Made by a program: the position numbers and the translations under genes | Notes under the pieces: model-generated | What the model was told of the DNA's origin: nothing | Databases searched by the model: none | Seen by the model: the letters and a program-made list of their open reading frames with translations, nothing else | NCBI GenBank assembly: GCA_030345135.1 | Contig: CP128386.1 | Span: 6,091,327-6,155,326, forward strand | DNA from: Chitinophagaceae bacterium DXS | GTDB lineage: Bacteria; Bacteroidota; Bacteroidia; Chitinophagales; Chitinophagaceae | Direction of reading: 5' to 3' | Length of the DNA stretch: 64,000 nucleotides | Part shown: in pieces, positions 3,962 to 62,705 of the stretch | Position numbering within the stretch: the first letter of the stretch is position 1 | Layout: each line of letters opens with the position of its first letter

Positions 3962-4075
3962 AGGAGGAGTGAGGTTTGAGGTGTGAGGTATCAGGTATCA
4001 GGTATCAGGTATCAGGTATCAGGTATCAGGTATCAGGTATCAGGTATCAGGTATCAGGTATCAGGTATCAGGTAT
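3962..4075 (+). repeat. GGTATCA heptad array at nadB 3' end
   Basis: Directly after the nadB stop come GTGAGG/GTGTGAG words, then twelve perfect copies of GGTATCA (3987-4070) plus a partial copy to 4075. The array is uninterrupted, so copy number is probably unstable. Complementary words occur at 4183-4232 next to the convergent gene. Confidence 0.9.
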
Positions 4076-4232: not shown

Positions 4233-5300
4233 CTACTTCATCCTATACACCGGCTTCGGATATCCCGGTTTAAAGCTCGCGGTGTTTTCCATCCTTATGC
4301 TGCATTTGCAGAGAACTTCAGTGTTGCGGACAGCCTTCCACAATAAATGTTTTAGTATAGCGGGTTCTGTTTGTACTCTTGCGTTAACAAGCAATGAAGC
4401 GTCCTTGTTTGCGGCGGACTCATCAAAAAGATGCTCAGTTTCTGTATGAACTGAAGTGAGACTGTATTTGTTTTTTCCATTTAGGAGTAGCTTAAGGTGA
4501 CCAATGGTCAGATGGTTTTCCTCAATTAATCTTCGTAAGGTTTTTATAAACACATTTACGCAATGAATAGCATTAAATGCCGGAGCTGAAAACTCAAGAT
4601 CTGTGTCCAGCCACGCCAGTTTAGATTCACCTTCGCCATATATATCATAATCTATATCGGTTGATACCGGCGCATCATACAAGCCCTTTGTGTTAATAAC
4701 GTTTAACCATTCCTGAACACTGGCTTCGGAAAAAGAATTTTGATATAATATCGTCTTGTTTGGATAATGATCTTTTACATACTGGCTTACTGATTGAAGC
4801 ATTTTTGCATCAGCAAGGTCAACTTTGTTTATAACAATAACCAAAGCTTCTTCCAGTTGCTTATTGTAAATGTATTTTACAGAAGCATCAAACAAGGGCA
4901 GCTTTTGTATAAACAGCAAATGGAACAAACGCACATCTACAAACGTAGACAGCGTAACATCAACGTTCTCTTTATTACTGCGCAATGGCTTAAGTACAGT
5001 TGCTACTATATCGGTGCACGAGCCAACAGCTTCTGCGAAAATAGTTTCCGGCTGTTCGCTGGTTTCAAATGATGTGATGCTGCTATTAAGATCGTGGTAA
5101 TTGCAGCAAAAGCAGCCGTTGATTATTTTTCTGTTAGGAATTGAAAGGCTATTGAAGAAATTGCTATCGACTAGTTGTATGCCCTGGTCGTTAGAGATAA
5201 CACCAACACTGATATCTTTTTCTTGTAATTGTTTACAAGCTTGTTGTATGGCGGTAGTTTTTCCACTTCCCAAAAAGCCACTAAGTAAATGTATTTTCAT
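4233..5300 (-). CDS. COG0523 family GTPase (CobW/YjiA-like metallochaperone)
   Basis: A 355-residue cytoplasmic G3E GTPase. Walker A GFLGSGKTT is at residues 8-16, the metal-binding CxCC motif (GCFCC) at 63-66, EAVG near 90, and the guanine-specificity motif NKVD at 158-161. COG0523 proteins deliver Zn, Co, Ni or Fe to client enzymes using GTP. The C-terminal part is unlike the best known CobW C-domains as far as I can judge, so the metal cannot be predicted. It is a single gene, convergent with nadB and 144 bp downstream of the FKBP-like gene on the same strand. No Zur or B12 control site was recognised upstream. Confidence 0.88.
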   Translation of the reverse strand: MKIHLLSGFLGSGKTTAIQQACKQLQEKDISVGVISNDQGIQLVDSNFFNSLSIPNRKIINGCFCCNYHDLNSSITSFETSEQPETIFAEAVGSCTDIVATVLKPLRSNKENVDVTLSTFVDVRLFHLLFIQKLPLFDASVKYIYNKQLEEALVIVINKVDLADAKMLQSVSQYVKDHYPNKTILYQNSFSEASVQEWLNVINTKGLYDAPVSTDIDYDIYGEGESKLAWLDTDLEFSAPAFNAIHCVNVFIKTLRRLIEENHLTIGHLKLLLNGKNKYSLTSVHTETEHLFDESAANKDASLLVNARVQTEPAILKHLLWKAVRNTEVLCKCSIRMENTASFKPGYPKPVYRMK

Positions 5301-5444
5301 TTGTTTGCACAGAGGTTAGGTTTACATAGGTACTGCTCAAATTTCGTCCTTTTTGTTAGTTTCCGGTGCTGGCAATTTATTATAAAATTTTTATTTTTTC
5401 GTAACTGATATGTACGGATATCTGTACTATGCAACATCATCTGT

Positions 5445-5801
5445 TCAGCCGATTGTGTTTGGGGCGTTATAACATGAACAATGTTCATCGCAATCATCAC
5501 CGTTTGAAGGAAAAGGATAACCGAGGATAACTTCTTCGGTAAGCGCAGGTCTTATATGCTCAATGAACACTTCAAAAGTATAATCATCGTCTGCAGCGCT
5601 ATGCGCTTTCTCAAGGTAAACCGTTTTTTTATCTCCTATATGTAATCCGCTGAGCTGTGATTGCAATATGATTGAAATACTGTCTGTTCCATGCAAAAAC
5701 TGCACCGGAGTACCATCCATGGTGTTTTCAAGAATTTCTTTATTGGAGTTCTTCATGATGTACCGCATTGTAACCACCATGTTTTCGGCTACGCAAATCA
5801 T
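5445..5801 (-). CDS. Small FKBP/SlyD-like peptidyl-prolyl isomerase
   Basis: A 118-residue protein with an FKBP core: VTMRYIMKNSNKEILENT, then PVQFLHGTDSI, then GLHIGDKKTVYLEKA. This is the SlyD-type half-barrel with its flap region. The last 15 residues are cysteine/histidine rich (DDCDEHCSC), recalling the metal-binding tail of SlyD, although much shorter. It probably catalyses proline isomerisation or acts as a chaperone in the cytoplasm. The start ATG at 5801 overlaps the stop of the GH116 gene in an ATGA, so translation is probably coupled. A start at the internal Met of residue 8 is possible. Confidence 0.7.
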   Translation of the reverse strand: MICVAENMVVTMRYIMKNSNKEILENTMDGTPVQFLHGTDSISIILQSQLSGLHIGDKKTVYLEKAHSAADDDYTFEVFIEHIRPALTEEVILGYPFPSNGDDCDEHCSCYNAPNTIG

Positions 5802-7354
5802 TCGGTAACAATTTTATCGTTGATGATGGTTTTGTCAATATTAATATTTCCGTGACTCACCTTGACAAGAGGTTTTCCGTTTTTTAACGATACTGTTCCA
5901 AAACCTGTGGCTGTTGATATAAAGCATGTGAAGTCTTTGTTTAGCCTGTTATTGATATGTAGTGTTTTGTCTACTGCGTCATATCTTATTCCTGTAAGTC
6001 CTTGCAACAATCCATAACTGGACATAGCCCTTGCATACCAATGTCCGCATTCATATTCATTAAAAGGATTGCGGATGCGTCCATCGTATCTGTCCCTGCA
6101 ATACCGTACTATTTCAAGGCCTTCGTTTGGGTTGCCGGAAAGCATAAGATGTGATGCTACCTGGTATTCGATACCCGTCCACACTTCATCACTATATACA
6201 AACGGTAAAGAAAGTTTCCCTCCTTTCGGCCATGAGCAAAGCAATAAGCCGCCATCATGGCCCAATGCAAAAGCGGGCCGTTGCGGATTGGCATGTTCGC
6301 TTAAATCTTTTTTAAGATTATACTTGTGTACAGACAGCAAATGACTCTTGATTTTTTTTGCATCTACAATATCATTGATCCCGCACATAGCTCCGATCCA
6401 TGTGCCCAGCACGCCATCACTCAGGCATCCGGTTCCGTATTGATATTTCGGACCTTCTTTTTGCAGGATTGCCACAGCTTCTTCGGAATAATCTCCTCCA
6501 AATGATTGAGCTTTTGCAGGGTTGGGAGCATTCAGTTCTTTATATTCAATATGCTGGAAAAAATATTCACCGTTATATAAATTCGTCTCCAGGTATGTTT
6601 TGCCTTTGGCATAAAGATCCTCATAACGGGTTACGTCTTTCTGCAGAAATTTACCCATTGCAATAAGAGATTGTAGTGCACCAAGATAAAAGCTGGTACA
6701 CATACCATCTGGTCCCCAGAATTCTATATCATACGTGTTATGATGCGGTTCTTCTACAATTCCCTTGCTGCGTGGGTCCCATGTTTTAATGCAATAATCC
6801 ATGCTCATCTTCACCATTGGATAGATCTTGGCCAACCATTCATTGTTGCCGCTTATGCGCCAGTCGCGATGTACTTTCATAATACCTCCAAGTTGCCCGT
6901 CTGCAGCAGCATGGAAATCATGTTTCAACGGACTGATCGGCATGTTGGCTCTAAATCCCTGATGTCCCAATTTGTTCTGGTTCTCACAAAATTCAGTATT
7001 GCGAAGCGATCGCTCCAGTGTTGGAAATAAATGCGGAACAGCCTGGGCATAGTTCCAGACATGCGTGCAGGAGCCATGACAACAACCGCCATCATCGCCA
7101 CAACCTTCCCAGCTCCACAAACGTCCGTCGTATTGACGAAGTACCGTTGGTGACTTAAGAATGGTAAGATTTGCAGCGACTGCTTCAAGCACTTCGGGTG
7201 GTAGTGTTGATGAATAAAAAGCTTCTGTAAACAGTGAGGTCTTTCTGAAAAGATCAGCATAGTTAGTTTTCCAATAATCGGCTACTTCAGTCACATTATT
7301 AAACCTGCTGCTATACCATGGCTTATAGTTTTTTGCGTCGTTTTTTTTTGCCAT
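5798..7354 (-). CDS. GH116 glycoside hydrolase, catalytic half (frameshifted)
   Basis: 518 residues covering the (alpha/alpha)6 catalytic domain of GH116 (beta-glucosidase/GBA2-like, glucosylceramidase type). Seen: KPWYSSRF at the domain start, YDGRLWSWEGCGDD near 75-88, the nucleophile region HNTYDIEFWG (E211 likely) and the acid/base region GCLSDGVLGTW (D313 likely). The frame opens at an ATG inside the 3' end of the N-terminal half. The two halves overlap by 32 bp in different frames at a run of nine A. Family members are normally one chain of about 850-900 residues, so this is one gene with a +1 frameshift, a real slippage site, or an assembly error. The ATG at 7354 could allow separate translation, but the product would lack the export signal. 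Confidence 0.85.
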   Translation of the reverse strand: MAKKNDAKNYKPWYSSRFNNVTEVADYWKTNYADLFRKTSLFTEAFYSSTLPPEVLEAVAANLTILKSPTVLRQYDGRLWSWEGCGDDGGCCHGSCTHVWNYAQAVPHLFPTLERSLRNTEFCENQNKLGHQGFRANMPISPLKHDFHAAADGQLGGIMKVHRDWRISGNNEWLAKIYPMVKMSMDYCIKTWDPRSKGIVEEPHHNTYDIEFWGPDGMCTSFYLGALQSLIAMGKFLQKDVTRYEDLYAKGKTYLETNLYNGEYFFQHIEYKELNAPNPAKAQSFGGDYSEEAVAILQKEGPKYQYGTGCLSDGVLGTWIGAMCGINDIVDAKKIKSHLLSVHKYNLKKDLSEHANPQRPAFALGHDGGLLLCSWPKGGKLSLPFVYSDEVWTGIEYQVASHLMLSGNPNEGLEIVRYCRDRYDGRIRNPFNEYECGHWYARAMSSYGLLQGLTGIRYDAVDKTLHINNRLNKDFTCFISTATGFGTVSLKNGKPLVKVSHGNINIDKTIINDKIVTE

Positions 7355-9755: not shown

Positions 9756-9756
9756 A

Positions 9757-9875
9757 AGACAGTAAGATAGTAAGATAGTAAGACCGTAAGATGGTAAGAC
9801 CGTAAGATGGTAAGACCGTAAGATGGTAAGACCGTAAGACATGTAAGACCTGTAAGATTGTAAGACGTGTAAGAA
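9757..9875 (+). repeat. GTAAGAY octad tract at acyltransferase 3' end
   Basis: About thirteen copies of GTAAGAC/GTAAGAT with an 8-9 bp period, starting within 3 bp of the stop codon. The word polarity is outward from the acyltransferase gene. Confidence 0.85.
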
Positions 9876-13647: not shown

Positions 13648-16600
13648 ATGAAAATAAGACATGTCATGCGTGCATGCATCCTTAGCATGCTGTTTTCTAT
13701 CGTCTGCTTTGCAGCATTTTCCCAAAAAAAAATCACAGGAACTGTAACAAGTTCAAAAACGAAACAGCCGGTAGCAAGTGCGTCCGTAACTGTTAAAGGT
13801 GCAAATGTGGGAACTGCAACAGACAACGGAGGAAATTTTACTATTACTGTACCTGCGGGTAAAACAGTATTAACAATCTCATCTGTAGGCTTTGCAGACC
13901 AGGATGTAACGATCGGCGATAGTCCGTTGAGCGTCTTGTTGCAAGAAAGTACATCAAGCCTTAATGAGATAGTCGTTACCGGCTATACCGGTCAAAAGAA
14001 GAAAGATCTTACAGGTGCTGTTGCCGTTGTAGATGTCGCCGGCGTTAAGGCGCAGCCAGCAGCTAGCCCTATAGAGGGTTTGCAGGGTAAGGCCACGGGG
14101 GTACAAATCACAAGTGACGGTGCTGCGGGTAGTACACCACAGATCAGGATCAGGGGCTTCAGTACCATTAATGACAATGATCCTCTATACATCATCGATG
14201 GAATGCCTTACAGGGGCAAACTTGGCTGGCTGAATGCTAATGACATCGAGTCTATGCAGGTGTTGAAAGACGCGTCTGCCGCGTCTATTTATGGATCGCG
14301 CGCAAATAACGGCGTTGTTATCATCACCACCAAAAAAGGTAAGGCTGGTACGCCGAAACTGAGCCTGGACGTATATTATGGTACACAAAATCCAAACAAA
14401 TCAAGGTATCCGAAAATGTTGAACCCTACTGAGTATGCGAATTATTTCTACCAGGAGTTCATCAATGCAGGACAAACACCTGGTACATCGGGAACTACAG
14501 GTACCAACTACGGTACATCACCCACTACACCCACCTTGCCGGAGTATTTACTGGCAGGAACAGCTACCGGGCAAAACATTACTGCTGCGGACTCGGATCC
14601 GTCCAAATATAACTACAGCACAGACGCTTCTACTTTTTACCAGATCACCAAAGCAAATCAACAGGGTACCGACTGGATGCGTGCCATTACAACGAATGCA
14701 CCGATACAGAATTACGAGCTTGGTTTGACTGGTGGTGGTGACAATTCGCAGTACGCTCTTAGCGGTAGCTATTTTGATCAGCAGGGTACGTTGAAATACA
14801 CATCCTATAAACGCGCTACGATCAGAGCCAACTCTAATTTCTTCCTGTTCAATAAACGCCTGACTATTGGCGAGAACATGCAGTACTCCTATAACAGAGG
14901 TGTGGGATATGCCACAAACACAAACACAGCAGGCAGTTATCAAAGTGAAGGTGCTGCGGTGTTTGAGGTATACCGTATGCAAAGCATCATACCGGTTTAT
15001 GATATTATGGGAAATTTTGCCGGAACAAAGGGTAGCATTCTGGGTAACGGCGAGAACCCATTGTCACTGTTATACCGTGCGAGAAACAATGTAAATACCG
15101 ACAACCAATTTTTTGGAAGCGCATTCGCAGATCTTAAGATCATCGACGGACTGAATTTAAGATCAACTTATGGTGTGCGCTATGACAATTATACTGGAAT
15201 AAGCATAACTGTGCCAAACCCTGAGATGTCAGAGGGAAGTGTCGACAGAAACAGCATGTCTGAATGGCAGGGAAATTCTTCAGACTGGACCTGGACAAAT
15301 ACGTTGACGTTTAGAAGGACATTTAACGACCATTCTCTTTCTGTGTTGGCAGGTACTGAAGCGGTTAATTCAAACTACAGGCAGGTTACAGGTAATGGAA
15401 ATAACTTCTTTCTTTACGGAGATATGAATTACTATTATCTGAGTGCGGCTGCTACCACAAGTTCCACCAGTGCAGCAACCAAAAGTACATTGTTCTCATT
15501 GTTCGGCCGGGTTGACTACTCATTTAAGGATAAATACCTGTTATCAGGAACAGTTCGCCGTGATGGTTCTTCCAACTTTGGTCCGCAGAACAGGTATGGT
15601 GTTTTCCCTGCAGCCAGCGCAGCCTGGAGAGTTTCAAAAGAGAATTTTATGCAGGGTGTAAACTGGCTTAACGATCTTAAGGTGCGTGCCGGTTGGGGTA
15701 TTACAGGTAACCAAAATATTCCTGCGTTCCAGTACCTGAAGACATTCCAGTCAAGCCTGACAGCTTCGTCCTATCCAACAGGAGGTAGCTCCACAAGCGC
15801 AGGTATCTGGGTAAATTCTTACGATAATCCTGCTATTAAATGGGAACAGGTGGAAGGATTGAATATAGGTGTGGACTTTTCTATTCTTAAAAACAAGATC
15901 GAGGGTTCGTTTGACTGGTATAACAAAGACACAAAGGACATGTTGTACCCTGTGCCACTTCCATCTGCAGCTGTTGGTGGCGGAGCTTCGCCTTATGTTA
16001 ACATAGGCAAGATGAATAATAAAGGTGTGGAATTGATGCTGACTTATCACTATGACGGTGATCCAAGACCAAATTCGTTCCGTTTTGACGTAACCGGTGC
16101 CATTTCGCATAACGTTAATAAGATCGTTGAGTTAACGCCTACGATTGATTATGTACCTTACAACAGTGTCAGGGACATCACTACTTCAGTCCTGAAAACA
16201 GGCGCGCCTTTCGGTGCTTTTTACGGATATAAAATGACTGGCATTTATCAAAGTGCAGATGACATAGCTAAGAGACCGTCTTATGATAAGGCTAGGGTAG
16301 GTGGTCCGATTTATGAAGATGTTTCCGGACCTGATGGTAAACCAGATGGAAAAATTGATGCAAATGACAGAACTGTTATTGGCACTCCTCATCCTAAGTA
16401 TATTTATTCGCTGTCTTACAATGCGTCTTATAAGCATTTCGACATCCTGCTTTTCTTTAATGGTTCTCAAGGCAATCAAATATTTGAACAAACACGCTAT
16501 TATACTGATCTGAATGGTTTTGATGGTGCTGTTACAAAAAGGATGCTGAATGCGTGGAGCCCTACCAATACTGGTAGCATGATCCCTTCACCTTACAGGG

Positions 16601-22806: not shown

Positions 22807-22980
22807 TTGAAGATTATAAGACAGTAAGACCGTAAGACATGTAAGATCGTAAGAGGTAAGATAAAAAGACAATAAGATGTAAAATAGAGGTAAGATTAAC
22901 TTTTTTCCGTGCTGGGAACCTTACCCCCGCTCTTTATACCTGATACCTTAAACCTGATACCTGATACCTTCTTCATGCTA
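22807..22980. repeat. Head-to-head short-word tracts between divergent genes
   Basis: GTAAGAC words (22817-22900) point away from the epimerase gene; TGATACC words (22937-22972), complement of GGTATCA, point away from icmF. No gene and no recognisable cobalamin riboswitch were seen in this leader region. Confidence 0.75.
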
Positions 22981-35248: not shown

Positions 35249-35782
35249 AGCAGGTATCAGGTATCAGGTTTCAGGTATCAGGTATCAGGTGTAAGTGAGG
35301 AGTGAGGTGTGAGGAGTGAGGAGTGAGGTGTGAGGTGTGAGGTGTGAGGTGTAAGGTGTAAGGGATAAGGTGTAAGGGATAAGGTGTGAAGGGTAAGAAG
35401 ATATAAAGCTCCGGCGGAGATTCCTGTTTGTAGAAAATCGAAATTTAAAATATCATCGGACTTCTGCGGAGTCTCCTGTAACGCTTGACAGGCAGCTCCT
35501 AACGGACCTTAAACGACCTATTTTATTTCTACAAACAGAATGCTCATATGAAGCAGCGCTAGCAAAGCATTATTTACTAAGTGACATTAACCTCCGGCCA
35601 ATGGCGCCGGGCAAGTAGCCAAAATTCAAAATTATTTTAAAAAAATTCAACCGAAAAAACAGCCTCTTTCCCTAACTGTCTCTTTCAAATACTAATAATA
35701 CCTCGAAGCTGGTGCTTGATACCTCACACCTTACGCCTCACACCTTACCCCTCACACCTGATACCTGATACCTCACACCTCA
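35249..35782. repeat. Bracketed intergenic region: GGTATCA/GTGTGAG tracts around an internal inverted repeat
   Basis: Plus-strand GGTATCA, GTGTGAG and GTGTAAG words run from 3 bp after the stop to about 35400. Their complements run from 35708 to the stop of the convergent TMEM220-like gene, whose stop TGA lies inside a repeat word. Between them CTGTTTGTAGAAA (35424-35436) and TTTCTACAAACAG (35526-35538) form an inverted pair around a GC-richer core. No gene is present. Confidence 0.75.
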
Positions 35783-36169
35783 CACCTGTCTCCGCCTCAT
35801 TTTCCTCCTGCTACCATAAATCCAGTTGATGGCAAGAACTACGATAAGGATCAACAGACCAAAAAATTCCCTGGTTTCTTCAATCCATGGTTTGGTTGCT
35901 TTCATGGTTTGGGCAATGCCCTCGGCGTTGTGTTCGGTTGCCCAGTCAAGTACACCCGTTTTATCAAAAAAGAGGTAAATAGCATAAGCCAGGTAAACAA
36001 ATATTCCCACGATATAGGCTCTCGGATAAAACCTGTTGCGGGCGGCTAAAAAGCACAATACGGCACTGTATATGTAAATAGGCACCCATATATACGGGTC
36101 GGGGTCGTTGTACTGTAATGCTGCAAAAATGATGAATACAACAAAAAAGAAGTAATTAAAAATTTTCAT
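35780..36169 (-). CDS. TMEM220-like small membrane protein
   Basis: 129 residues with four hydrophobic segments (about 3-18, 25-43, 50-67, 100-116). LQYNDPDPYIWVPIYIY after the first helix is the hallmark of the transmembrane 220 family. The C-terminus is basic (GSRRKMRRRQV), and its last two codons and stop are made of repeat words, so the original tail may have been altered. The function is unknown. The next gene upstream on the same strand is the PAP2 phosphatase, 121 bp away. Confidence 0.8.
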   Translation of the reverse strand: MKIFNYFFFVVFIIFAALQYNDPDPYIWVPIYIYSAVLCFLAARNRFYPRAYIVGIFVYLAYAIYLFFDKTGVLDWATEHNAEGIAQTMKATKPWIEETREFFGLLILIVVLAINWIYGSRRKMRRRQV

Positions 36170-41902: not shown

Positions 41903-42540
41903 AGTACGAAGTGTTAAGTACGAAGTACGAATGATTTAAACCATATAGGGCATATAAGGGAACATATAAGGAAAACTTACATGCTCTTATATGCCGTCTG
42001 TACAACCGGTGAATAGTCAATAGTCAATGGTGAAGGGCACAAACTGGCTGAGTAGGCATAAACTACCCTAGTCAGCATTAACCCAGGGGGGTAAGGTCTT
42101 ACACGCCCTTATATGACTTCTATACAACTAGTGAATAGTGAATGGTCAATGGTGAAGGTCCGAACTGGTTAAGTAAATATATTGTCGTTTAAGTGTTACT
42201 ATTATCCTGGGCAAAAGCTCTTATTTGCTCTTATATTTCTTAAATGGTTTAAAAAACTTCGCTTGGGTCAGCTTTAGGCTTTGGGCTTTAAGCTTTATCA
42301 GTTGTTTACAAAGAAACGTTGGCACCCGACACCTTATTTATATGGTTTAAAAAACTTCGCTTGGGTCAGCTTTCAGCTTTAGGCTTTAGGCTTTAAGCTT
42401 TATCAGTTGTTAACAAAGAAACGTTGGCGCGGCCGACACTTTACTTATATGGTTTTAAACATTTTTTCAATATTTTACGGATTCACCAATAAATACTGCT
42501 TATAAATTAAGTACTTCGTAACTCGTACTTCGTACTTATT
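41903..42540. repeat. Repeat-filled intergenic region with two tandem duplications
   Basis: There is no gene in 724 bp. AAGTACGAAG words at 41903-41930 are mirrored by CGTACTTCGTACTT at 42518-42538. A segment of about 65 bp containing GTGAATAGT words (41986-42050) recurs at 42108-42172. A unit starting ATGGTTTAAAAAACTTCGC is tandemly duplicated (42244-42341 and 42342-42448); the second copy is longer mainly because it has an extra TTTAGGC heptad. A third partial copy starts at 42449. Confidence 0.75.
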
Positions 42541-42623: not shown

Positions 42624-43751
42624 ATGAGAAGAATATACCTGGATAATGCCGCTACTACGCCTTTGGATGAGTGTGTACTTGATGCCATGATGCCTTATCT
42701 TACATCACAGTTCGGAAATCCTTCATCAATATACAGTTACGGTCGCGAAAGCCGCCTGGCTATTGAAAATGCGCGTAAAAGTGTAGCAAAGATCCTGAAC
42801 GCCCATCCGGCTGAAATATTCTTTACCAGTGGTGGAACAGAGAGCAGTAATACTGCTATTAACGCTTCGGTAAGGGATTTAGGCTGCAAGCACATTATTT
42901 CTTCTCCTGTAGAGCATCATGCTACTTTACATACTGTAGAACATCTCCATAAAACCGGCGAAGCCGCTTTAAGTTATGTAAAGCTGCTGCCCGATGGTCA
43001 CGTTGATCTGGCTGATCTGGAAAAGCTTCTGAGTGAAAGTACCGATAAGTGCCTGGTTACCTTAATGCATGCCAACAACGAAATAGGCAATATGCTGAAT
43101 ATTCATGCTGTTGGCGAGTTATGTAAAAAGTATGACGCCATCTTCCATAGTGATACTGTGCAAACGGTTGGCCATTTTCCCTTCGATCTCAGAAATACCT
43201 ACGTTCATTTTATAACTGGTGCCGGACATAAGTTTCACGGTCCAAAAGGTGTGGGTATCCTCTATGTTAATGAGAATATTAAGATCACTCCTTTTGTGCA
43301 TGGCGGATCGCAGGAACGCAATATGCGCGCGGGTACAGAAAACCTGTACGGAATTGTCGGTTTTGCCAAAGCCCTGGAACAGGCGACTGCCAATTATGAA
43401 AAGGACAGCGCATATATAAAAAGTCTCAAGTTGTACATGATGGAACAGCTGCAGCAACATCTTGGCGACGTGTCTTTTAATGGCGATGTGTTAGGATGTA
43501 GCCTGTATACTGTATTAAATGCAAGTTTCCCCAAAACTGATAAAAGCGAAATGCTGCTTTTCAGCCTGGATATAAACAACATCTGTGCTTCAGGCGGAAG
43601 TGCCTGTACAAGCGGCGCCGATGCCGGCAGTCACGTCATCCGGTCAATCGCCAACGATCCCGATCGCGTAGCTGTACGATTTTCCTTCAGCAAATACAAT
43701 ACAAAGGAAGAGATTGACGAAGTGGTAGAAAAGCTGAAAACGCTGATATAG
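42624..43751 (+). CDS. Cysteine desulfurase (NifS/IscS family)
   Basis: 375 residues of a PLP fold-type I enzyme. Seen: YLDNAATTPLD at the N-terminus, FTSGGTESSNTA (70s), VEHHATLHT, HANNEIGN, HSDTVQTVGHFP, the PLP lysine K203 in GAGHKFHGPKG, and the catalytic cysteine C328 in ASGGSACTSG. The long loop around C328 places it in class I (NifS/IscS) rather than SufS. It removes sulfur from cysteine as a persulfide for Fe-S clusters or tRNA thiolation. No iscU or mnmA is adjacent, so the sulfur acceptor is unknown. Its TAG stop is the first base triplet of a TAGCTATCAGCT repeat. Confidence 0.92.
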   Translation: MRRIYLDNAATTPLDECVLDAMMPYLTSQFGNPSSIYSYGRESRLAIENARKSVAKILNAHPAEIFFTSGGTESSNTAINASVRDLGCKHIISSPVEHHATLHTVEHLHKTGEAALSYVKLLPDGHVDLADLEKLLSESTDKCLVTLMHANNEIGNMLNIHAVGELCKKYDAIFHSDTVQTVGHFPFDLRNTYVHFITGAGHKFHGPKGVGILYVNENIKITPFVHGGSQERNMRAGTENLYGIVGFAKALEQATANYEKDSAYIKSLKLYMMEQLQQHLGDVSFNGDVLGCSLYTVLNASFPKTDKSEMLLFSLDINNICASGGSACTSGADAGSHVIRSIANDPDRVAVRFSFSKYNTKEEIDEVVEKLKTLI

Positions 43752-43790
43752 CTATCAGCTGTCAGCTATTAGCTATCAGCTTGTGTTGCC
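43749..43790 (+). repeat. AGCTATC heptads at cysteine desulfurase 3' end
   Basis: TAGCTATCAGCTGTCAGC and AGCTATTAGCTATCAGC start at the stop codon itself. The next 150 bp (43791-43942) show nothing recognisable apart from a degenerate CATCGTAT lead-in to the array. Confidence 0.7.
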
Positions 43791-43942
43791 TGACTGAGGC
43801 CTTTATCGTCTTGGATAATATTTTTCTGCGCCACATGATTTATGGCTGAAACTATAGTTTTGATCTGTCACAGAAGCCTGGTGCAGGTTATGTGCCAGTC
43901 CACATCGTATTAACATCGTATAGAAGAGTTTGCAAAAATCAG

Positions 43943-44971
43943 CCTGCCCGCACCAACGTACTTCGTAAATCGTACTTCATACTTACATCTAACATTGCAC
44001 GCCAAACCTGCGGCTTCCAACATCGTACACCGTACATCTAACATCGTACATCATCGTGCCCCTTAAAAATGAGCCTGCCCGCACCAGCGTACTTCGTAGC
44101 TTGCACTTCGTACTTAAACCCAACATTGTACCTCAAACCCGCGGCTTCCAACATCGTACACCGTACATCTAACATCGTACATCATCGTGGCCCTTAAAAA
44201 TGAGCCTGCCCGCACCAACGTACTTCGTAAATCGTACTTCGTACTTACATCTAACATTGCACACCAAACCCGCGGCTTCCAACATCGTACATAGTACATC
44301 TAACATCGTACATCATCGTGCCCCTTAAAAAATCGCCTGCCCGCACCAACGTACTTCGTAGCTTGCACTTCGTACTTAAACCCAACATTGTACCTCAAAC
44401 CCGCGGCTTCCAACATCGTACACCTTACATCTAACATCGTACATCATCGTGGCCCTTAAAAAATCGCCTGCCCGCACCAACGTACTTCGTAAATCGTACT
44501 TCGTACTTACATCTAACATTGCACACCAAACCCGCAGCTTCCAACATCGTACATAGTACATCTAACACCGTACATCATCGTGCCCCTTAAAAAATCGCCT
44601 GCCCGCACCAACGTACTTCGTAAATCGTACTTCGTACTTACATCTAACATTGCACACCAAACCCGCGGCTTCCAACATCGTACACCGTACATCTAACATC
44701 GTACATCATCGTGCCTCTTAAAAATGAGCCTGCCCGCACCAACGTACTTCGTAAATCGTACTTCATACTTACATCTAACATTGCACGCCAAACCCGCGGC
44801 TTCCAACATCGTACACCGTACATCTAACATCGTACATCATCGTGGCCCTTAAAAATGAGCCTGCCGCACCAACGTACTTCGTAAATCGTACTTCGTACTT
44901 ACATCTAACATTGCACACCAAACCCGCGGCTTCCAACATCGTACATCGTACATCTAACACCGTACATCATC
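43943..44971. repeat. Tandem array of eight 131-bp units
   Basis: Units begin with CCTGCCCGCACCAACG at 43943, 44074, 44205, 44336, 44467, 44598, 44729 and 44860, so the period is exactly 131 bp throughout; the last unit is truncated. Each unit contains CGTACTTCGTAAATCGTACT words, a unique core with CCGCGGCTTCCAACATCG, CGTACATC words, and a CCCTTAAAAA joint. Units 2 and 4 share a distinct variant (AGCTTGCACTTCG) and units 3 and 5 share CATAGTACAT, so a two-unit block was duplicated. 131 is not divisible by three, so it does not encode a repeat protein. Confidence 0.95.
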
Positions 44972-44981
44972 CATTCCTCCC

Positions 44982-44989
44982 TATCTTTG
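44982..44989 (+). promoter_or_regulatory. Bacteroidota -7 promoter element before carboxylase gene
   Basis: TATCTTTG lies 22 bp before ATG 45011, 10 bp after the end of the 131-bp array. The array occupies the place of the -33 region. Confidence 0.45.
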
Positions 44990-45010: not shown

Positions 45011-46645
45011 ATGGAAAAAACACTCGCGGGTACTACAAGCTGGCTGAGGAAGCTAACCGAACAATTACAACAAAGATTAGAGTCGATAAAAAAGGGTGGC
45101 GGCGAAAAAGCAATTCAAAAACAACGGGAAAAAAATAAGCTGACTGCGAGAGAACGGGTTGCTTATTTGTGTGATGCGGATAAGCCTTTCATAGAAATAG
45201 GAGCGTTTGCAGGATATGAGATGTATGAAGAGTACGGCGGCTGTCCGGCCGGTGGAACAGTAGCTGGAATAGGTTATGTGAGTGGAAGGCAGTGTGTAAT
45301 AATGGCCAATGACCAAACCGTTAAAGCGGGAGCCTGGTTTCCCATAACAGGCAAAAAGAACCTGCGCATGCAGGAAATAGCAATAGAGAACAATCTGCCT
45401 CTTATTTATCTTGTAGACAGCGCCGGCGTTTTTTTACCACTACAGGATGAGATTTTTCCGGATAAAGAACATTTCGGACGCATTTTTCGCAACAATGCAC
45501 AAATAAGTGCGATGGGCATAACGCAGATCGCGGCGGTGATGGGATCTTGTGTGGCTGGTGGCGCCTATCTGCCCGTAATGAGTGATGAAATTTTAATCGT
45601 CCGGAATAATGGTAGCATTTTTCTCGCAGGCCCGTATCTTGTAAAAGCGGCGATCGGTGAAGAAACAGATATGGAAAGCCTGGGTGGCGCATCCATGCAT
45701 GCACAGATAAGTGGTACTGCGGATTATATTTTTGATACAGAACACGAATGCCTGGATCATATTAAAAAACTGGTCGCACAAATAGCAGATTCGCCAAAGG
45801 CAAATTTTAACCGAATCCAATCATTTGCGCCGGCAAAAGATCCGGAAGAGCTATACGGATTGCTTTCGGACGGAAACGCCAGGCCATATAACGTGGTTGA
45901 TATAATTGATAGAATTGTCGATGCCGACATTGATGAGCCTTCCAAGTCATCATTCAGACAATTTAAGGAAGAATATGGCAAGACCATTGTCTGCGGATAT
46001 GGTCGCATAGACGGATGGTCCGTTGGTTTTGTAGCCAATCAGCGCCTTATTGTGAAAAATGGAGAAGGTGAAATGCAGGTTGGTGGTGTTATTTACAATG
46101 ACAGCGCAGATAAGGCTGCACGGTTTATTTTGAATTGTAATCAGAAGAAAATTCCGATCATTTTTTTGCAGGATGTCACAGGCTTTATGGTTGGGCGCCG
46201 CAGCGAGCATGCCGGCATTATTAAAGATGGAGCAAAAATGGTGAATGCCGTTGCGAATTCCGTTGTTCCTAAATTCACTATTGTTACCGGTAACAGCTTT
46301 GGTGCGGGCTATTATGCCATGTGTGGTAAAGCATATGATCCAAGGCTGATTGTTGCATGGCCTTCGGGGAAAATCGCAGTGATGGGCGGGGAACAGGCTG
46401 CAAGAACTTTGCTGCAGACACAAACATCCGGTAAAAACTTAACGAAAGAAGAAGAGAACGCACTTCTTCAAAAAATAAAAGACCGCTACGAAAAACAAAC
46501 AACCCCTTATTATGCAGCAGCACGAATGTGGGTTGATGCCATCATAGATCCTGTTGAAACGAGACAGTTGATTAGTGAAGGGATATCAGCCGCCAATAAC
46601 AATGCAAATATGCCGGAGTTTAAGACGGGTGTGATACAAGTGTAG
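45011..46645 (+). CDS. Acyl-CoA carboxylase beta subunit (carboxyltransferase)
   Basis: 544 residues from ATG 45011 (an in-frame TTG at 45002 is less likely). Crotonase-fold N and C halves: KLTARERVAYLCD, GTVAGIGYVSGRQCVIMANDQTVKAG, YLVDSAGVFLPLQ, MGSCVAGGAYLP in the first half; FLQDVTGFMVG, GAKMVNAVANSVVPKFTIVTGNSFGAGYYAM and KIAVMGGEQAA in the second. This pattern is closest to the methylcrotonyl-CoA carboxylase beta branch; propionyl- or geranyl-CoA specificity is possible. It moves CO2 from carboxybiotin on an alpha subunit not found here. With icmF it suggests branched-chain amino or fatty acid breakdown in this organism (inference). The 131-bp array lies immediately upstream. Confidence 0.92.
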   Translation: MEKTLAGTTSWLRKLTEQLQQRLESIKKGGGEKAIQKQREKNKLTARERVAYLCDADKPFIEIGAFAGYEMYEEYGGCPAGGTVAGIGYVSGRQCVIMANDQTVKAGAWFPITGKKNLRMQEIAIENNLPLIYLVDSAGVFLPLQDEIFPDKEHFGRIFRNNAQISAMGITQIAAVMGSCVAGGAYLPVMSDEILIVRNNGSIFLAGPYLVKAAIGEETDMESLGGASMHAQISGTADYIFDTEHECLDHIKKLVAQIADSPKANFNRIQSFAPAKDPEELYGLLSDGNARPYNVVDIIDRIVDADIDEPSKSSFRQFKEEYGKTIVCGYGRIDGWSVGFVANQRLIVKNGEGEMQVGGVIYNDSADKAARFILNCNQKKIPIIFLQDVTGFMVGRRSEHAGIIKDGAKMVNAVANSVVPKFTIVTGNSFGAGYYAMCGKAYDPRLIVAWPSGKIAVMGGEQAARTLLQTQTSGKNLTKEEENALLQKIKDRYEKQTTPYYAAARMWVDAIIDPVETRQLISEGISAANNNANMPEFKTGVIQV

Positions 46646-62489: not shown

Positions 62490-62705
62490 GACCAAAAAAA
62501 GACGTGTAAGATTGTAAGACAGTAAGATCGTAAGATAAGCGGAGTGCAAAAAAAAGAAAACCGCAGATCAATAGGTAGGGTAACCCAATGATCTGCGGTT
62601 TTGTTTTTGTGTAAAGTATCAGAACCGAAATAGTAATCACTGTCTCATTCTCAACAGCCCCTCTTACGTGTCTTACTGTCTTACTGTCTTACGGTCTTGA
62701 TAGCG
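62470..62705. repeat. Inverted GTAAGAC tracts around a central terminator
   Basis: GTAAGACCGTAAGACC words begin inside the sterol-desaturase-family gene and run to 62535. Their complement CTTACTGTCTTACGGTCTTG (62655-62700) precedes the stop of the convergent DUF4197 gene. Midway, AAAACCGCAGATCA (62557-62570) pairs perfectly with TGATCTGCGGTTTT (62589-62602), followed by T-rich sequence: a bidirectional terminator. Confidence 0.85.

Follow-up and report, generated by a model that had tools for sequence, protein, structure and literature searches.

An eight-unit 131-bp array upstream of a carboxylase gene is probably a local amplification of a dispersed intergenic heptad repeat

The window analysed here, a 64,000-nucleotide stretch of the genome of Chitinophagaceae bacterium DXS, contains an eight-unit tandem array with a period of 131 bp between a cysteine desulfurase gene and an acyl-CoA carboxylase gene. 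It seems likely that this array arose when a dispersed intergenic passenger repeat, built from heptads, was amplified locally in tandem, and that it is not a dedicated regulatory device, since composite arrays of the same dispersed blocks (E1 and E2) stand at other loci. The array adds one more example of an intergenic heptad repeat amplified locally, and it gives reason for caution: such arrays in front of promoters are not to be taken as regulatory modules. The part that deserves follow-up is a polarity rule that holds across repeat families. Heptads between genes are known from several phyla, with no agreement on how they arose or what they do, and a strict polarity with a switch point, kept across unrelated unit sequences, places a sharp constraint on their origin. 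The rule is testable in any annotated genome.

Results

The array occupies positions 43934 to 44971 on the forward strand and consists of eight head-to-tail units, all on one strand, each of 131 bp except for the last, which has 130. The unit starts (43934, 44065, 44196, 44327, 44458, 44589, 44720 and 44851) are always 131 bp apart. TRF returned the same span, 43934-44971, with a period of 131, 7.9 copies, 91% matches, no indels and a score of 1726. Together with the alignment of the units, this confirmed what the first-pass annotation had described, namely exact 131-bp spacing, differences by substitution only and a last unit shorter by 1 bp. The end at 44971 was likewise as described; the start was not, and lies 9 bp before the position given there. 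Any two units differ at 3 to 24 positions, and units 2 and 4 form a separate subtype. The closest pair, units 1 and 7 (three differences), is not adjacent, as would be expected if blocks had been duplicated or converted.

The array is strongly C-rich on the forward strand, with a GC skew of about −0.47. Each 131-bp unit is made up, in this order, of a linker, E1 (CGTACTTCGTAAATCGTACTT...), a private spacer and E2 (CATCGTACACCGTACATCTAACATCGTACAT). In unit 3, for example, the E1 block CGTACTTCGTAAATCGTACTTCGTACTT lies at 44219 to 44246 and the E2 block CATCGTACATAGTACATCTAACATCGTACATC at 44283 to 44314, both on the forward strand, and each recurs every 131 bp. Just left of the array, at 43901 to 43922 on the same strand, CACATCGTATTAACATCGTATA can be read as a degenerate E2. 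As RNA, the 131-bp unit folds no better than shuffled sequence on either strand (z of −0.4 and −0.8), and an Rfam search of the 64-kb window gave no match; a structured or known RNA was therefore rejected. No tRNA remnants were found, and a coding repeat was rejected because 131 cannot be divided by 3 and the array is crossed by no open reading frame.

To survey these blocks beyond the array, we used a sample of 1.264 Mb, comprising the window and sixty 20-kb stretches of the same genome, of which 24 were picked around matches and are biased for that reason; a simple home-made program supplied the gene calls. Searching the genome with the array as query gave 65 similar places. Two blocks recur, E1 as CGTACTTCGTACTTCGTAAATCGTACTT or a shifted form of it and E2 as CATCGTACACCGTACATCTAACATCGTACAT, often in the order E1-spacer-E2 on the same strand, and both belong to the GTAC heptad family. 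With mismatches allowed, E1 was found at 123 and E2 at 102 places in the 1.26 Mb sampled; in the same sample reversed-pattern controls gave no places, and none of the 225 places lies inside a called gene. Genome-wide, the exact E1 pattern occurs 100 times on the forward and 110 times on the reverse strand, 210 places in all, against none for its reversed control. Thus the statement that the heptads of the unit also occur as free tracts elsewhere was borne out, both by the 65 places and by the exact E1 matches. Among family genomes the exact pattern is present in 12 of 195, mostly in few copies (34 in one), which indicates that the expansion seen here is lineage-specific. In the unbiased pieces heptads make up 3.6% of intergenic but 0.05% of coding DNA, and TRF rows are dominated by periods of 7, 14 and 21. 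In a Markov-shuffled control of 0.72 Mb from the same genome, heptads were almost absent and no tandem repeat exceeded a period of 25. Within E2-type heptads a REP-like hairpin, CCCGCCCGAACGTGCCGTCGGTACGGGCAGG, is present at 21 of 21 places in the 1.26 Mb (stretches L150, L123, L137, L157 and others; for example at genome position 1573344), nearly always as CGTA-hairpin-CATCT, and E1 contains a variant of it.

At least eight further arrays share this architecture and contain other private spacers, at periods of 108, 122, 225, 70, 97, 108, 101 and 194 bp. Arrays built alike but with different spacers and periods show that amplification has taken place separately several times. The first-pass annotation had viewed the present array as an expanded heptad tract that captured a unique core. 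Its embedded heptads and its locus-private core stand; more exactly, what was amplified is an E1-spacer-E2 composite that recurs with other cores. Long repeats of other kinds were also seen. Positions 42239-42459 of the window hold 2.2 copies of a 105-bp unit with AAAGC-type heptads, and the adjoining sequence recurs at other loci. In stretch L134, repeats of 370 and 283 bp (4715-6001 and 15475-16343) both carry the GCGCGTGTGTTCCGCAGGATCAC sequence and are probably another dispersed family.

The upstream neighbour of the array is a cysteine desulfurase gene of the NifS/IscS family (42624 to 43751, forward strand), an open reading frame whose match to NCBIfam TIGR03402 (E 2.6e-117) is under the curated cut-off. 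Downstream, also on the forward strand, lies a gene for a PccB/MmdA-like acyl-CoA carboxylase carboxyltransferase (45011 to 46645), whose match to TIGR01117 (E 3.2e-106) is likewise under the curated cut-off. The carboxylase gene has matches in 36 of 39 relatives, and its closest named counterparts are from Parafilimonas, Ilyomonas and other Chitinophagaceae. A promoter −7 box of the Bacteroidota type, TATCTTTG, is situated at 44982 to 44989 on the forward strand, 29 bp 5' of the ATG. The distance from the array end to this box is 10 bp, in agreement with the earlier reading. Of 50 upstream regions from orthologues, 28 have TAnnTTTG between −20 and −38 relative to the start. Upstream of the box the orthologues are not conserved and are quite different from the array, and in some relatives the space holds other heptads (TCCATTC, TTTCACG, CGTACTT); their upstream DNA shows a modest rise in self-similarity at lag 7 (0.344 versus 0.286, p 0.014). 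Since DNA upstream of the conserved box is not itself conserved, the array appears to occupy dispensable DNA up to the box. The proposal that it replaces the promoter region therefore holds only in part: the −7 box survives intact and is conserved, and with unconserved DNA upstream nothing demonstrable has been replaced.

We considered whether the array could be a cis-regulatory platform in which each unit binds a protein or bends the DNA and the number of units tunes carboxylase expression. Its end so close to an intact, conserved −7 box is in favour of this, and E2 tracts at some other genes also end near a −7-like box, so that some scope is left for a promoter role. However, the array region is unconserved and orthologues have other sequence there, some of it other heptads. 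Moreover, at many loci E1 and E2 are found next to stop codons and oppositely oriented, and some of these loci are convergent pairs with no promoter to serve. A regulatory platform is consequently unlikely, and neither the first-pass suggestion of a regulatory or protein-binding platform nor the idea of an array special to the carboxylase promoter finds support, in view of the differing orthologues and the E1 and E2 tracts directly after stops elsewhere. The sequence gave no evidence for a role of the array in carboxylase control.

Read as CGTACTT, E1 and E2 tracts stand so that a few bases separate their right end from a stop codon, or tens of bases separate it from a start codon, whatever the direction of the gene, and few lie in divergent regions. 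We counted orientation with fixed words for each family, using tracts no more than 60 bp from an open reading frame boundary and two-sided tests. Across unrelated families of 7-, 8- and 10-bp units, 124 tracts point outward from the gene and 3 inward, with starts and stops behaving alike; the reading directions of the words were set once the data had been inspected a first time, so that this count tests consistency within families only. By family, the outward to inward counts are 22:1 for GTAC, 19:0 for CAGCT, 22:2 for AAAGC, 16:0 for TTGAAA, 28:0 for GGTAT, 10:0 for TAAGAC octads, 5:0 for ATGTGC decads and 2:0 for others. Within a single intergenic region, tracts pointing outward from the left gene precede those pointing outward from the right gene in 135 pairs, the reverse order being seen in 7. 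For tracts of the same family the corresponding figures are 34 and 0, and in the unbiased pieces alone 58 and 6. The region of the array conforms to the rule. An AGCTATC heptad tract, found by TRF and in the tract list, starts at the desulfurase stop codon and runs outward (43750 to 43781, forward strand), and the GTAC array faces the carboxylase gene in the outward orientation.

Applied to other Chitinophagaceae with words set in advance, the count came to 17 outward tracts and no inward ones (11:0 in genome G172 and 6:0 in other pieces). In distant Bacteroidota polarity is weaker, at 11:3 overall; one family there stands at about 5:3, and genome G326 is fully consistent. No paper stating a polarity rule across families was found in the searchable literature, outside which most subscription papers lie. 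Elsewhere in the window, GGTAT heptads at 3986-4075, 35251-35389 and 35717-35788 form inverted pairs that flank intergenic regions and point outward from both genes, and the 8-bp TAAGACNG tracts at 9756-9874, 22817-22877 and 62662-62698 show that octads follow the same rule as heptads.

Discussion

The near-equal occurrence of E1 on the two strands (100 against 110) shows no global strand bias, which was rejected as the cause of polarity on these grounds; the skew of the sampled stretches had no clear switch. A further candidate was orientation driven by composition. Repeat-free intergenic DNA is weakly skewed in the same direction as the tracts, +0.07 after stops and −0.21 before starts, but AGCT-type tracts have the opposite GC skew and yet keep a strict outward orientation (CAGCT, 19:0). 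Base composition alone is therefore no explanation. The same observations bear on the idea that selection on transcripts and leaders, G-poor before starts and purine-rich after stops, orients the heptads with no polarity of growth. The weaker same-sign skew of repeat-free DNA is consistent with such selection, whereas the AGCT-type tracts speak against it, as does the position of the array, and of other tracts, on the upstream side of the promoter box and hence outside the leader; we consider this explanation improbable.

The hypothesis that we favour, doubtful as it still is, holds that tracts grow outward from indispensable borders in the 5' to 3' direction, for example by 3'-end extension in the repair of intergenic breaks. 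Repeat addition outward, 5' to 3', on each side of an intergenic break would fit the observed geometry, and repeat addition at broken chromosome ends would be comparable in this respect. Polar growth would account for the single orientation of each family, for the like behaviour of starts and stops and for the single switch point of each intergenic region. It is conceivable, albeit with low probability, that one polar process lays down many unrelated short-unit intergenic repeats outward from gene edges. If so, the 131-bp array would be a secondary amplification of an outward-grown tract.

It is also possible to see E1 and E2 as short REP- or MITE-like elements moved by a transposase, and the array as a run of tandem insertions. 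Consistent with this, the blocks are dispersed with a fixed internal order, GTAC heptads enclose the REP-like hairpin at 21 of 21 places, and the genome has seven matches to Y1 transposases, the superfamily of the RAYTs. However, a scan for the hairpin word, rather than for E1 or E2, found it absent at six of the seven matches and present once near the seventh. Mobilisation by a RAYT was judged unlikely since the Y1 matches are mostly not beside the hairpin, and as far as we looked they have no link to the repeats. Furthermore, the spacers are private to each array yet common to all its units, which points to local duplication and not to repeated insertion, and other heptad families show like polarity with no element body. 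We regard transposition as quite improbable. The centres between inverted tracts were also considered as a single mobile element, a possibility discarded as they are mostly unrelated to one another. Two reverse transcriptase loci were noted, at genome positions 6376891 and 5782529, with open frames of 604 and 314 aa; by themselves they say nothing, and no linkage to repeats was seen as far as we looked. Finally, although tandem repeats are known to cause assembly errors, an artefactual unit number is extremely improbable, given a genome assembled as a single 7.29-Mb contig (100% complete), units that differ at up to 24 positions and like arrays at other loci.

Local amplification of a dispersed composite thus being the preferred account, its steps can be proposed from the sequence alone. 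The first duplication probably arose when two E2 copies, one on each side of a linker-E1-spacer segment, underwent unequal exchange. The array itself ends with an E2, and the degenerate E2 at 43901-43922 would be the left partner of the founding exchange, although, degenerate as it is, its resemblance could be due to chance. Later exchanges of one or two units could have produced the present eight units and their subtype pattern. All this would have taken place in freely changeable DNA between the desulfurase gene and the carboxylase −7 box, at which the array stops.

Several known systems resemble these repeats. Rehm et al. (2015; PMC4692102) described intergenic heptanucleotide repeats, GGGAATC in Xanthomonas and GGGGA(T/C)T in Nostoc, which lie 0-50 bp from open reading frames, on the coding strand where they follow a stop and on the non-coding strand where they precede a start; the Xanthomonas heptads often form inverted pairs, and G-quadruplexes were discussed. 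These heptads, which are related to the cyanobacterial STRR sequences, share with ours the 7-bp unit, a dispersed and mostly intergenic location, several to many copies and the same geometry. Like STRR-type sequences, E1 and E2 are intergenic 7-bp tandem units far above chance with many dispersed copies. In contrast, the GTACGAA and GTACGAT units here have no G run and so cannot form G-quadruplexes, which take runs of at least three G. In addition, several unrelated families obey the rule in one genome here, and two heptad blocks form a composite amplified to satellites of 70-225 bp. TAACTGA direct repeats occur in Beggiatoaceae, Cyanobacteria and some Bacteroidetes, in which mixed heptamer arrays also occur (MacGregor, 2015; PMC4679880). 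They stand forward before starts, with one Bacteroidetes case reversed just after a stop (TCAGTTA outward), and most reach to a few bases from the start codon, for which a translational role was proposed (PMC4679880). The array described here, by contrast, sits on the upstream side of the promoter box. Our CAGCT tracts, TCAGCTA outward, are one letter from TCAGTTA. The observations of both studies fit the polarity rule found here.

REP/BIME sequences with their RAYTs are comparable in being dispersed, intergenic and sometimes tandem, and Y1 transposases are present in this genome; E1 and E2, however, are not palindromic hairpins, the unit folds no better than chance (z of −0.4 and −0.8) and no linked transposase was found. 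With bacterial VNTR minisatellites the array shares a long unit, near-identical head-to-tail copies and local amplification. It differs from them in that its unit is built from a dispersed short-unit repeat and recurs elsewhere with other spacers.
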